Made by a program: the position numbers and the translations under genes. This document shows positions 54,406 through 58,461 of a stretch of DNA of 64,000 nucleotides, piece after piece. The stretch covers positions 1 through 64,000 of the forward strand of contig JAJZDW010000021.1 in the NCBI GenBank assembly GCA_021851405.1. The letters run 5' to 3'. The notes beneath the pieces were generated by a model that did no database searches, had not been told where the DNA came from, and was given only the letters and a program-made list of their open reading frames with translations. This DNA comes from Pseudomonadota bacterium. Lineage in GTDB: Bacteria; Pseudomonadota; Gammaproteobacteria; Steroidobacterales; Steroidobacteraceae. Every line of letters begins with the position of its first letter. Within the stretch, counting starts at the first letter, position 1.

Positions 54406-55740
54406 TCAGCGGGTGTGCTCGTCGACGGCGCGCGCGAGGTCCGCGAGGGCCGTCGCGATGGTCACCGGGTAGGCGCTCTCGGGGGTGAGCGCACGCAGAG
54501 CTTCGGGCAGGCGGCGCCGTTGCTCGGCGGCGAAGGCGCGCACCGTGGTCAGGGGCGGTGAGGGCGCCAGTCGCTTGCCCTCCGACATCACCGGCTTCAG
54601 CAGCGCCTCACCGAGCGCCGCATCGTGCTCGACGCTGAGTGTATCGCCCGCCATGCGACCGTCTGCATCGTAGCGGCGCCAGATCTGCTTGCGGCCGGGC
54701 CACGTGGCCTTGCCTTCGGAGCGTTTGCGGCGGGGCGTACCGGCGTATTCCTGCAGCTTGTAGACGCACTCGAGGTAGGGCTGATCGGCCGACGTGTTCA
54801 TCCGGGTGCCGACCCCGAAGCCGCTGATCGGGGCCCCCGAGGCGATCAGCTCGGCAATCGCGTATTCGTCGAGGCCGCCGCTGGCGAAGATCTCGATCGA
54901 GGCGAGGCCGCCCGCATCGAGGATCTGACGCACGCGCCGTGCGAGCGTGGCGAGGTCGCCGCTGTCGAGGCGCACGGCGCGAATCGGGATGCCATCGGCC
55001 GCGAGCGTCCGGGCGAGCGGCACGATCGCTCGCGCCGCCGCTTCGGTGTCGTAGGTGTCGAGCAGCAGCGTATTGGCCTGCGGATGCGAGCGAGCGAAAT
55101 GCTCGAAGGCGGTCCGTTCATCCGTCTCGGCTTGGATGAACGAGTGCGCCATGGTGCCGAAGAGCGGAATGTCCCAGCGCATGCCCGCCAGGACCGTGGC
55201 CGTGCCGTCGAATCCGGCGAGGTAGCTGGCCCGCGCAGACAGCAGCCCCGCCTCGGCGCCGTGCGCGCGGCGTAGACCGAAGTCCACCAGCAGGTGCTGC
55301 GGCGCGGCAAGGCGCACACGCGCGGCTTTGGCGGCGATCAGCGACTGAAACTGCAGCAGGTTGATGATCCGGGTCTCGACCAGCTGTGCCTCGCGCAGCG
55401 GGGCCACCACGCGCAGTATGGGCTCGTTGGGAAAGAACACCGACCCTTCGGGCATGGCCATGACGTTGCCCGTGAAGCGCAGATCGGCGAGTGAGGCGAG
55501 GAAGCGCGAGTGAAGGCGTCCGCTGCGCTCGAGCTAGGCGAGTTCCGCGTCACTGAAGCGCAGCGTCTCGAGGTACTCGAGCACCTGCTCGAGGCCGGCG
55601 GCGACCAGAAAGCCGCGTGTCGCGGGCAGTTCGCGCACGAAGAATTCGAACACGGCCGTGTCATTCATGCCCTGATCGAAATACGCCTGCAGCATGGTGA
55701 GCTGATACAGGTCGGTGAGCAGAGCGCTGGTCTCGGGCAT
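54406..55740 (-). pseudogene. pncB: Nicotinate phosphoribosyltransferase with in-frame amber codon
   Basis: From ATG 55740 the frame encodes a full NAPRTase (about 444 codons): LLTDLYQLTMLQAYFDQGMNDTAVFEFF at the start, RFTGN/FFPNEPILRV, then LLVDFGLRRAHGAEAGLL, VLAGMRWDIPLFGTMAHSF and AVRLDSGDLATLARR. A TAG at 55534-55536 interrupts it after SDAELA; homologues have Tyr at this place (AELAYLERSG), a single-base difference from TAC/TAT. The frame continues intact beyond it. It may be a pseudogene, a sequencing error, or be rescued by reinitiation at the MAMPEG ATG (55461). The enzyme makes nicotinate mononucleotide for NAD salvage. Confidence 0.8.
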
Positions 55741-56102
55741 GGTCTGGCTTTCGAGCGTCGAAGGGGGGGCTGCGGGTGATGCCGTATCCACGCGGCTCCG
55801 GGACCACCGCCGCGCCGTCGGCATCGATCCTCTCTGCATCCCGGAACCCGGTCCATGGCGCAGCGAGCGGGCGGTGGCTCGCGCCGGACTGAACCGTCCG
55901 GTGCGGGGATTTTCGGCTGAAATACCCCAGCAGGCTCAAAAGCATAGCACGCGCCGTCACCGCATCGGCACCCGCCGCGCAGCGTGCTGCGACGCGCCCG
56001 AGTACGCGGCATGCCCGCGTGGACCGCACGGCGATCGGGGGCCGCGGGCCGCGGCCGGTGCGCCGACTCGAGCACGGCAGTGCCGGTGCGGCGCGCTCAC
56101 GC
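55741..56102. other. Gap without a clear gene
   Basis: Between the NAPRTase and the DAHP synthase promoter. Frames here are mostly Arg-rich shadows. A TGCTATGCT extended -10-like element on the minus strand near 55950 could serve the NAPRTase but is weak. Nothing else convincing is seen. Confidence 0.4.
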
Positions 56103-56131
56103 TTGCCGAGTCGCGTGCGCCATGGTATTTC
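56103..56131 (+). promoter_or_regulatory. Candidate promoter of the DAHP synthase leader
   Basis: TTGCCG (56103-56108) and TATTTC (56126-56131) form a sigma-70-like pair with a 17-base spacer. The expected start of transcription is about 56138, which coincides with the GTG of the leader peptide, so the leader mRNA could be nearly leaderless. Sequence support is moderate. Confidence 0.45.
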
Positions 56132-56137
56132 TACGCC

Positions 56138-56227
56138 GTGCCCAAGTCTCACACCCTCCGCTCTGCGTATTATCGATTTTATTGGCCGCATTCGCAGGCG
56201 GTTGGCGGGCTGTTGTCGGTTTCATGA
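56138..56227 (+). CDS. Aromatic-rich leader peptide of the DAHP synthase gene
   Basis: A 29-codon frame from GTG 56138 to TGA 56227. Codons 11-16 (56168-56185) read TAT TAT CGA TTT TAT TGG, that is YYRFYW: five aromatic codons in six. Such clusters are the control codons of attenuators for aromatic biosynthesis. The start codon lacks a strong SD and may be used leaderless. The frame in the other register from ATG 56122 has no such cluster. An antiterminator and terminator follow. Inference from sequence; no experiment. Confidence 0.6.
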   Translation: MPKSHTLRSAYYRFYWPHSQAVGGLLSVS

Positions 56228-56283
56228 TCTAGTCGAGACGAGAAACACCCCAAAGAACCGCCAGTCCCCTGGCGGTTTTTTTT
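56197..56283 (+). terminator. Attenuator terminator with competing antiterminator
   Basis: AACCGCCAG (56256-56264) and CTGGCGGTT (56269-56277) form a perfect 9-bp hairpin with loop TCCC, followed by a T run (56276-56283), 30 bases before the DAHP synthase start. GGCGGTT at 56197-56203, inside the leader reading frame downstream of the aromatic codons, is complementary to AACCGCC (56256-56262), so it can pair as an antiterminator. CCGC (56186-56189) may pair with GCGG (56198-56201) as the alternative hairpin. Confidence 0.65.
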
Positions 56284-56313
56284 CGCCCCGGGGACTCGCC
56301 ACCGGAGCCCAGC

Positions 56314-57408
56314 ATGCATTCTCAGACTGACGATCTGCGTATTCGCGGAATGACCGAACTCGCGACGCCCGAAGAGGTGGTCCGCGAACGCCCCTGTTCG
56401 GACCGCGCGGCCGGTACGGTGAGCGAGGCCCGCCGGGCGGTGCAGGACATTCTGCACGGCCGGGATCAGCGGCTCGCCGTGGTGATCGGCCCGTGTTCGA
56501 TTCACGATGTGCACGCGGCCCAGGCGTACGCCGAACGTCTGGCGAGTGAGCGGGCGCGGCTCGCCGACTCGCTCGAGATCGTCATGCGCGTCTATTTCGA
56601 GAAGCCGCGGACCACCGTGGGTTGGAAGGGTCTGATCAACGATCCGGAGCTCGACGGCAGTTTTCGCATCAACGATGGCTTACGGCTGGCACGCGCGCTG
56701 CTGGTGGAGATCAACGAGCTCGGCCTGCCGGCGGGCTGCGAGTTCCTCGACATGATCACCCCGCAGTACATCGCCGATCTGGTCTCCTGGGGTGCGATCG
56801 GGGCGCGCACGACCGAGAGCCAGATCCACCGCGAGCTCGCCTCCGGTCTGTCCTGCCCGATCGGCTTCAAGAACGGTACCGATGGCAACGTGCGCATCGC
56901 GGTCGATGCGGTGCGTGCCGCCTCGCAGCCGCATCATTTCCTCGCCGTCACCAAACAGGGCCGCAGTGCGATCGCGGCGACGGCCGGCAATCCGGACTGC
57001 CACGTCATCCTGCGCGGCGGACACGTCCCGAATTACGATGCCGCGAGCGTCGAGGCGGTCTGTCGGGAGACGCTGGCGGCAGGACTCAGCACCCGCTTGA
57101 TGATCGATGCAAGTCACGGCAACAGCGGCAAGCGCCCCGAGCGCCAACCGCTCGTCGTCGAGGATATTGCCGCACAGATCGAGTCTGGGGAGCGACGGAT
57201 CGGCGGCGTCATGATCGAGAGCAATCTGGTCGCCGGCCGCCAGGATCTGCTCCCCGGTAAGCCCCTCGTTTACGGCCAGAGCGTCACGGACGGATGCCTG
57301 GATTGGGCCGGCTCGGTGCAGGTGCTCGAGCGCCTGGCGTGCGCAGTCGCCCGCCAGCGCGACCGCACCGGTCGCAGGCGAGGTGGCTCGGCGGTCAGCG
57401 GCTGCTGA
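56314..57408 (+). CDS. 3-Deoxy-7-phosphoheptulonate (DAHP) synthase, class I
   Basis: A 364-residue class I DAHP synthase, first enzyme of the shikimate pathway, joining phosphoenolpyruvate and erythrose 4-phosphate. Landmarks are VVIGPCSIHD, MRVYFEKPRTTVGWKGLINDP, GARTTESQIHRELASGL, FKNGTDGNV, VILRGG and IDASHGNSGKRPERQ. Metal ligands (Cys, His, Glu, Asp) are present. Which aromatic amino acid controls it cannot be told. The leader peptide and terminator upstream suggest attenuation by aminoacyl-tRNA supply. Confidence 0.94.
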   Translation: MHSQTDDLRIRGMTELATPEEVVRERPCSDRAAGTVSEARRAVQDILHGRDQRLAVVIGPCSIHDVHAAQAYAERLASERARLADSLEIVMRVYFEKPRTTVGWKGLINDPELDGSFRINDGLRLARALLVEINELGLPAGCEFLDMITPQYIADLVSWGAIGARTTESQIHRELASGLSCPIGFKNGTDGNVRIAVDAVRAASQPHHFLAVTKQGRSAIAATAGNPDCHVILRGGHVPNYDAASVEAVCRETLAAGLSTRLMIDASHGNSGKRPERQPLVVEDIAAQIESGERRIGGVMIESNLVAGRQDLLPGKPLVYGQSVTDGCLDWAGSVQVLERLACAVARQRDRTGRRRGGSAVSGC

Positions 57409-57562
57409 TCGCGCGGGAGGCGCGTCTCGGCGGAGTGGACAGGGCGTGGGATGGGTGCGCGTCGGGCCGACTCGATCAGGACAATCACGGATGACTGTGA
57501 ACCTCTGATGGCTCAGGCTGCCCGGCAATGCCTCAGCGCGCGGCCCGGAAGGAGTGGGCGGC

Positions 57563-58461
57563 ATGAAGCGCATCGTCCTGTTCGCCGCGGTCAACATCGC
57601 CGTGCTCGCGGTGATCACCGTCATCCATCGTCGAGCTTCTGGGCCTGGATCGGTATTGGGCGGTCCGTGGCGTCAGTCTGAATGACCTGCTGATCGTGAG
57701 CGCGCTGTTTGGCTTCGGCGGCGCATTCCTCTCCCTCGCGCTCTCGAGATGGATCGCCAAGACCTCGATGGGCGTCAGGGTGATCGACGTCCCGCAGAAT
57801 GCGACCGAGCATTGGCTGCTCGAAGCGGTGGGGGCGCACGCCACGCGGCTCACTCTGGCGATGCCCGAGGTGGGTCTGTTCGAATCGCTTGCCATGAACG
57901 CCTTTGCCACCGGCGCTCGGCGCAACGCGGGACTGGTGGCCGTCAGTCGCCGATTGCTCGAAGGCATGGGAGCGCAGGAGGTGCGGGCCGTCCTCGGGCA
58001 CGAAAATGACCCATGTCGCCCATGGCGACATGGTCACGCTGGCGCTCCTGCGGGGGGTGCTCAACACCTTCGTGATCTTTCTGGCGCGAGTCGTTGGCAC
58101 CGCGATTGACGGGGCCATCGGCGGGCAGCGCGACGATCGGGTCGGGGGAGGGATGTTCTACTTCCTCACCGTGATCATTCTTCAGGTCGTGTTCGCGGTG
58201 CTGGCGACCGTGATCGTGATGGCCTTCTCGCCTCACCGGGAGTACCGGGCAGATGCGGGCGGCGCGCAGCGTGCCGGGCGCAACAGCATGATTGCGGCGC
58301 TGCATGCCCTTGAGCGCACCGAGCCGGCCGCACTGCCGGGACAGTTCCAGGCCTTCGGGATGGCCGGCCTCCGCACGCACGGTCTGCTGCGCCGCCTCTT
58401 CATGAGCCATCCGCCGCTCGAGGCTCGGATTGCGGCATTGCAACGGCTGAACGTGGCATAG
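57563..58461 (+). pseudogene. htpX: HtpX-type membrane metalloprotease, two frameshifts
   Basis: Three frames together give a complete HtpX. From ATG 57563 (GGAG upstream) the first frame reads MKRIVLFAAVNIAVLAVITVI. An extra base near 57626 moves to VELLGLDRYW and VSALFGFGGAFLSLALSRW, through NAFATGARRNAGLVAVS to VLGHE. An extra A in the run at 58003-58006 then moves to MTHVAHGDMVTLALL and on to SPHREYRADAGGAQ. Removing one base at each place restores HExxH and the whole protein. Decay or base-calling errors cannot be told apart here. Intact HtpX cleaves damaged membrane proteins. Confidence 0.85.

Follow-up and report, generated by a model that had tools for sequence, protein, structure and literature searches.

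The window analysed here, a stretch of 64,000 nucleotides from a gammaproteobacterial genome of the family Steroidobacteraceae, encodes on its plus strand (56314..57408) a type I (AroFGH) DAHP synthase of 364 aa, assigned by the family model TIGR00034 (aroFGH; score 522.8 bits, cut-off 173.2). DAHP synthase, which opens the aromatic amino acid pathway, sets the carbon flow into all its products, and in enteric bacteria its transcription is controlled by TyrR and TrpR. When the genome was searched with the type I protein, the only match was the protein itself; a type II DAHP synthase (PF01474) is encoded on another contig, and no aromatic leader was seen by eye in the 400 bases upstream of that gene. 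The HTH_50 domain (PF18024), which we take as a stand-in for TyrR, gave a single match in this genome, below the cut-off. Two genes near the type I locus appear interrupted: an htpX-like gene (Peptidase_M48, 57561-58461) has its start, middle and end in different frames, as expected of a pseudogene or of assembly indels, and a nicotinate phosphoribosyltransferase gene on the minus strand (54406-55839) is divided between two ORFs, the N-terminal part at 55537-55839 and the rest at 54409-55461, likely by a frameshift.

Upstream of the type I gene, on the same strand, lies an ORF of 29 codons (56138..56227, from GTG at 56138 to TGA at 56227) for the leader peptide VPKSHTLRSAYYRFYWPHSQAVGGLLSVS, in which the codons for Tyr Tyr Arg Phe Tyr Trp (YYRFYW, 56168..56185) form a cluster with five aromatic codons in six. 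Within the same ORF, GGCGGTT (56197-56203) and a second GGCGG (56204-56208) make up a putative antiterminator strand, segment 2 (56197..56208). Segment 3, the 5' arm AACCGCCAG (56256..56264), is common to the antiterminator and the terminator, and segment 4 (56269..56283) consists of the 3' arm CTGGCGGTT and the U tract of an intrinsic terminator, a pairing that was followed over 77 leaders. The terminator hairpin AACCGCCAG-TCCC-CTGGCGGTT (56256-56277) has a perfect stem of 9 bp and a 4-nt loop followed by a T run, and only 30 nt separate the U tract from the ATG of the DAHP synthase gene. The aromatic leader, the perfect hairpin and the ability of GGCGGTT to pair with its 5' arm had all been claimed in the original prediction, and a letter-by-letter reading found the leader coordinates and all parts in agreement with the letters of the window.

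Taken alone, the window is less telling. Its fold stands out only modestly (z = -2.24; 4 of 200 shuffles are equally or more stable), a consensus scan of the window detected no sigma-70-type promoter, and a simple scan reported a terminator at this place solely for the minus strand, leaving out the plus-strand hairpin, in our opinion probably because the scan stretches the plus-strand stem into the T run. No Rfam covariance model matched anywhere in the window at the gathering score. Because of the modest fold and of scans that returned neither a promoter nor a plus-strand terminator, the case rests on comparison.

Among 58 genomes of the genus, the upstream DNA was matched in 16, two of which (G053 and G004) match only before the leader; the DAHP synthase protein was likewise matched in 16, in one of them (G017) with no more than 34% identity, at E 3.7e-4. 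The leader is present by reading in 15 of the 58, absences not being firm since many of the genomes are incomplete, and a type II DAHP synthase (PF01474) occurs in 50. Subject to the same incompleteness, this distribution suggests that the attenuated type I isozyme is patchy and the type II enzyme nearly general, with gain or loss within one genus. At the level of the family, protein matches were obtained in 77 of 200 genomes, and all 38 genes of the window's DAHP synthase lineage (about 60% or more identical to the window's protein) whose upstream DNA was read, the window's included, carry the same anatomy. These comprise 37 leaders plus L036, whose flank is cut by a contig end, so that its leader, present on reading, enters no alignment. 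For 35 paralogues (51-55% identity) our detector shows no terminator in the upstream DNA, and one of them has an aromatic ORF without a terminator. The switch therefore tracks one gene lineage. Eight family loci stand outside the count (G147, G064, G091:C85, G094, G107, G109, G121 and G123); two of these, G147 and G064, are partial members of the window's lineage.

Named genomes were scanned with the window's protein, and the 80 records retained are the best of at least 590, a sample that leans to close DAHP synthases. A short aromatic ORF lies upstream of the DAHP synthase gene in 55 of these best 80, and the detector placed a terminator after it in 52. The leader-bearing genera include Dyella, Xanthomonas, Stenotrophomonas, Rhodanobacter, Janthinobacterium, Massilia, Burkholderia, Cupriavidus, Bradyrhizobium, Mesorhizobium, Devosia, Methylosinus and Leisingera, whose class assignments we presume. 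By title, nearly all of the 55 records are alpha-, beta- or gammaproteobacterial, and one is titled Anaerolineae. The other 25 records were set aside as lacking the leader; three of them (L174, L177 and L193) have a weak aromatic ORF that was judged to be no leader, and L180 offers only 58 bases of upstream sequence. No leader was detected before the DAHP synthase genes of Pantoea, Erwinia, Serratia, Pectobacterium, Polynucleobacter, Thauera, Azoarcus, Ferrovum and others.

The frequency of such an arrangement by chance was estimated with a single fixed threshold (at least five F, Y or W in eight residues, plus a terminator) on 1506 control segments from the same records, L160 and L180 being left out for want of upstream DNA. 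The combination was found in 48 of 78 DAHP synthase upstream regions and in none of the 1506 controls. The aromatic ORF alone was found in 52 of 78 regions against 3 controls, and with the threshold relaxed to at least four in eight, in 56 of 78 against 41. Judged by the comparison with relatives and controls, a chance origin of the arrangement in the window is excluded. The record titled as an Anaerolineae metagenome-assembled genome (L175) is a case of its own: an aromatic leader, MSRYFSFFSWYGYFAAG..., lies about 200 bases upstream of its DAHP synthase gene and is followed by a different GC-rich hairpin, which may reflect transfer, contamination or a convergent case outside the Proteobacteria.

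Each of 89 leaders has 4 to 8 aromatic residues within eight. The cluster contains Phe in 88 of 89, Tyr in 88 of 89, Trp in 70 and all three in 68, frequencies that are partly due to selection, as the leaders were picked on aromatic density; over the whole peptide the numbers are 89, 88, 74 and 73. In 42 close leader pairs, which are not independent of one another, synonymous changes make up 76 of the 137 codon differences of a single base, a fraction of 0.55 where 0.20 would be expected; by this measure the leader evolves like a coding sequence. The same pairs bear on a mechanism similar to that of TnaC, in which the nascent peptide, with a free aromatic amino acid as ligand, and not a lack of charged tRNA, would stop the ribosome. 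The residues AVGG and PLAEG, conserved after the cluster in many leaders, could be read in its favour, but they are encoded by the conserved GGCGG bases. Moreover, F, Y and W interchange at aligned places, the length of the cluster varies, and where one or both leaders of a pair have an aromatic codon, 55 of 96 changes are synonymous, Tyr to Tyr or Phe to Phe (again from non-independent pairs), all of which makes peptide-specific arrest very improbable.

Pairing was assessed in an alignment of 77 leaders, 30 of the 37 from the family (our own pick, for diversity) and 47 of the 55 from named records, from which five repeats of a peptide and three leaders without a detected terminator (L163, L175 and L189) were left out. 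An earlier analysis limited to the family had given, at four flank positions, covariation reached by 12, 852, 23 and 2000 of 2000 shuffles and a total reached by 1 of 2000, which is why more leaders were gathered. In the alignment of 77, the terminator is paired in 96.0% of cells, with 33 compensatory cells against 7.9 after shuffling (0 of 500 shuffles). The antiterminator is paired in 79.1%, with 20 compensatory cells against 9.2, a number that none of 500 shuffles reached, and its covariation score was reached by 2 of 500; of its five measures, two are unexceptional, namely pairs with two-sided changes (3 against 3.3; 442 of 500 shuffles) and further pair types (11 against 9.6; 124 of 500). 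Across the 89 leaders, segment 2 is predicted to pair more stably with its own 5' arm than with foreign arms (-14.89 vs -14.10 kcal/mol; 0 of 5000 permutations), and the preference persists when 28 clades of our own grouping are taken as units (100 of 20000 permutations). GGCGG stands at the aligned place in 70 of the 77 leaders, and the two Devosia leaders L126 and L132 have GGCAG. The comparative evidence for the terminator is thus strong, and that for the antiterminator is good but less ample, since the near-constant GGCGG core leaves little variation to compare. Comparison of the DNA upstream of related DAHP synthase genes, the check suggested with the original prediction, finds the aromatic cluster kept, if partly by selection of the leaders, and both hairpins covarying; neither hairpins without covariation nor a loss of the aromatic codons in relatives, the two outcomes named as adverse, was encountered.

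Two models of the leader extend the comparison beyond those collected. The first, R1, was searched against 396 genomes of the order and matched 91 of them at E 0.01, many matches being weak and covering the terminator end only; full-length matches at E < 1e-10 number only 35, 31 in the window's family and 4 in another. The second, R2, was built from the 77 DAHP synthase leaders, the window's among them, and searched against 397 genomes of the phylum, some of which may be those of the named source records. It matched 119 of the 397 at E 1e-4, many through the terminator alone. Full-length matches, among those listed, number 72, and 58 of them, in 58 genomes including the window's, lie 22-143 nt upstream of a DAHP synthase gene on the same strand. 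The window's protein finds a match at E 1e-80 in 219 of these genomes, against 58 leaders among the matches listed, so that the leader is widespread but by no means universal.

The position of these matches also bears on whether the hairpin merely terminates a separate unit, a small transcript or a small-protein gene, with the promoter of the DAHP synthase gene downstream. The terminator is of a common kind, and the many weak R1 matches to its end alone would suit such an arrangement; against it stand the 58 of 72 full-length R2 matches listed that are followed by the gene, the mere 30 nt from the end of the window's U tract to the ATG, and the covariation of the antiterminator strand with the 5' arm. 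We consider an unconnected transcript most improbable.

Eleven full-length R2 matches without a DAHP synthase gene were read, three more (G553, G817 and G667) lying outside this set. Eight of the eleven precede, with fitting leaders, genes identified by family models of their proteins: pheA in four (L233, L236, L238 and L239), pheST in three (L234, L235 and L237) and trpE in one (L241), whose leader MNIGNWWWARFARP contains WWW and whose gene was recognized by Pfam and NCBIfam matches. The remaining candidates L240, L242 and L243 resemble chance matches and were rejected. Recovery of pheA, pheST and trpE leaders by a model built from DAHP synthase leaders only is a useful positive control, and these Phe and Trp attenuators may share descent, or only layout, with the DAHP synthase leaders.

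A putative promoter (56103..56131, plus strand), recognized by eye, consists of TTGCCG (56103-56108), a 17-nt spacer and TATTTC (56126-56131) preceded by TGG; it would place the start of the transcript at 56138, 7 nt after the -10-like element and on the G of the leader's own GTG, making the RNA leaderless. The TTGCCG/TATTTC match is weak, and its support comes from conservation. A TA-type -10 element starting 11-14 nt before the start codon is found in 24 of 30 leaders of the family, 7 of 7 from Xanthomonadales and 8 of 13 from alphaproteobacteria; the pattern breaks down in Oxalobacteraceae (4 of 9 leaders) and in leaders of the Burkholderiaceae type (3 of 15). A sequence resembling a Shine-Dalgarno (SD) motif was seen in just 3 of the 74 leaders from all these groups. 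From this we infer that translation in the window's family probably begins at the very 5' end of the RNA. Seven Burkholderia-type leaders (L151, L156, L158, L161, L162, L167 and L171) have no evident SD sequence and a TATAA some 40 nt upstream of the leader ORF, which makes a short 5' UTR without an SD sequence likelier there than leaderless RNA. The claim that a promoter sets the transcript start at the GTG thus gains from the conserved -10-like element and the lack of SD sequences, and is held back by the weak match and the empty consensus scan.

The consequences of ribosome position were modelled by folding the leaders with a masked ribosome whose footprint was assumed to reach 10 nt past the A-site codon. 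The mean probability of the antiterminator, P(2:3), over the 77 leaders is 0.98 with the ribosome stalled at the last aromatic codon and 0.16 with the ribosome at the stop codon; in 58 of the 77 it is at least 0.7 in the former state and at most 0.2 in the latter. For the window, P(2:3) is 1.0 at every aromatic codon of the cluster and 0.03 at the stop. As the mean P(2:3) is still 0.65 when the RNA between the stall site and the arm is shuffled, this measure taken alone is weak evidence, a matter of consistency and not of proof. In the ribosome-free state, P(2:3) reaches 0.99 in the window and averages 0.65 over the 77, so that antitermination is predicted in many leaders. The antiterminating ribosome-free fold of the window and of many other leaders indicates that the 1:2 protector hairpin of the E. 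coli trp type, by which an untranslated leader terminates, is not conserved in this element.

The locus thus has a leader rich in codons for the products of the pathway, a terminator before the gene and an antiterminator that uses the terminator's 5' arm and excludes it, and we consider it highly probable that it controls the type I DAHP synthase gene as a ribosome-mediated transcription attenuator. Its parts, conservation, coding constraint, covariation and position are shown by the comparison, and it very probably responds to aromatic supply. In the mechanism that we propose, a ribosome would begin translating the leader, probably from the very first base of the transcript, and trail the RNA polymerase. 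Were charged Tyr-, Phe- or Trp-tRNA short, it would stall in YYRFYW and leave the GGCGG region (56197-56208) exposed to pair with the 5' arm (56256-56264), the terminator would not form and the DAHP synthase gene would be transcribed. With all three ample, the ribosome would cover GGCGG up to the stop codon, the 5' arm would pair with the 3' arm and transcription would stop in the U tract near 56283. The transcript start, the stalling, the termination and the acting amino acids are the parts of this scheme that we infer.

The same attenuator could also sense a single amino acid, e.g., Phe or Tyr, with the other aromatic codons as passengers, tolerated because of the likeness of Phe, Tyr and Trp. 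The near-constant Phe and Tyr of the cluster (88 of 89 leaders each) beside the less regular Trp (70 of 89) would agree with this, and there is a precedent in the aroR-aroF attenuator of Corynebacterium glutamicum, reportedly described by Neshat in 2014. Its leader, with the residues Phe-Tyr-Phe, answers to limitation of Phe and not of Tyr, by the account available (PMC11802643). Yet Trp, a rare residue, is still kept in those 70 clusters, and in the modelled folds a ribosome halted at whichever aromatic codon of the window's cluster gives P(2:3) of 1.0. We regard sensing of one amino acid as possible but rather doubtful. The original claim that the overall aromatic supply is sensed fits the mixed codons and the folding, but by the reported response of C. 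glutamicum aroR mixed codons are no guarantee of it.

DAHP synthase control at the level of transcription is best known from enterics, where it involves TyrR and TrpR, and in the parts consulted of a comparative study both are described as conserved in many gammaproteobacteria and absent in other classes (PMC5343134). A conserved leader able to report Phe, Tyr and Trp together may therefore be the control of DAHP synthase that has been missing for many proteobacteria and, if this is true, a clean system for studying how the charging states of several tRNAs are combined by a single leader. It is in our view an even call whether type I DAHP synthase is controlled as a rule, in much of the alpha-, beta- and gammaproteobacteria, by one conserved pan-aromatic attenuator whose leader mostly combines codons for Phe, Tyr and Trp; such a switch would play the part that TyrR and TrpR have in enterics and would have been replaced where those repressors took over. 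In searches of the open-access literature we found no report of this proteobacterial DAHP synthase leader; the likeliest source, a 2004 proteobacterial survey by Vitreschak and colleagues, falls outside that scope.

The nearest known system, as far as descriptions of position and codons can be compared, is aroR-aroF of C. glutamicum, where stalling in the Phe-Tyr-Phe leader before aroF raises expression (PMC11802643, PMC4046766). Both have an aromatic-codon leader before a DAHP synthase gene in a genome with two DAHP synthases, and PF01474 (type II) has a match in that of C. glutamicum, but C. glutamicum belongs to another phylum, and the descriptions consulted name three aromatic residues, against 4-8 within eight, usually with Trp, in the leaders studied here. 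The uORFC-13-1 motif before Acholeplasma aroF is likewise described as a predicted upstream ORF with one or more Phe codons before an intrinsic terminator of the DAHP synthase gene; by the same partial account it differs in its restriction to Acholeplasma and environmental sequences, in its ribosome-binding site and in having at least one Phe codon in place of a mixed cluster (PMC8632094). Control of DAHP synthase genes at the RNA level has also been suggested for Shewanella aroF and aroH, before which RNA motifs are predicted, aroF being tabled as a Tyr-tRNA-sensing attenuator (PMC2659441), and for E. coli aroF in a hypothesis of 1980 (cited in PMC8632094). These are predictions or hypotheses concerning genes of the aroF-tyrA type, and the descriptions consulted mention no mixed aromatic leader. 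The pheA, pheST and trpE attenuators recovered by R2 share the logic and the layout; they differ in control codons, which are Phe-rich or Trp-rich, and those of pheA and pheST also in the terminator stem, GCCTCC/GGAGGC-like as opposed to CCGCC/GGCGG in the DAHP synthase leaders. In Sinorhizobium meliloti the trpL RNA starts at the ATG, according to the passages available (PMC7298713), so that this proteobacterial attenuator has its leader ORF at the RNA 5' end, as is probable for the window; its control codons are for Trp, before trpE(G), and its 5' end is known, whereas that of the window is deduced. Set beside these systems, the element in the window, in all probability a real attenuator, is ordinary in kind, the kind being known from aroR-aroF, and unusual in its breadth and in its mixed aromatic codons.
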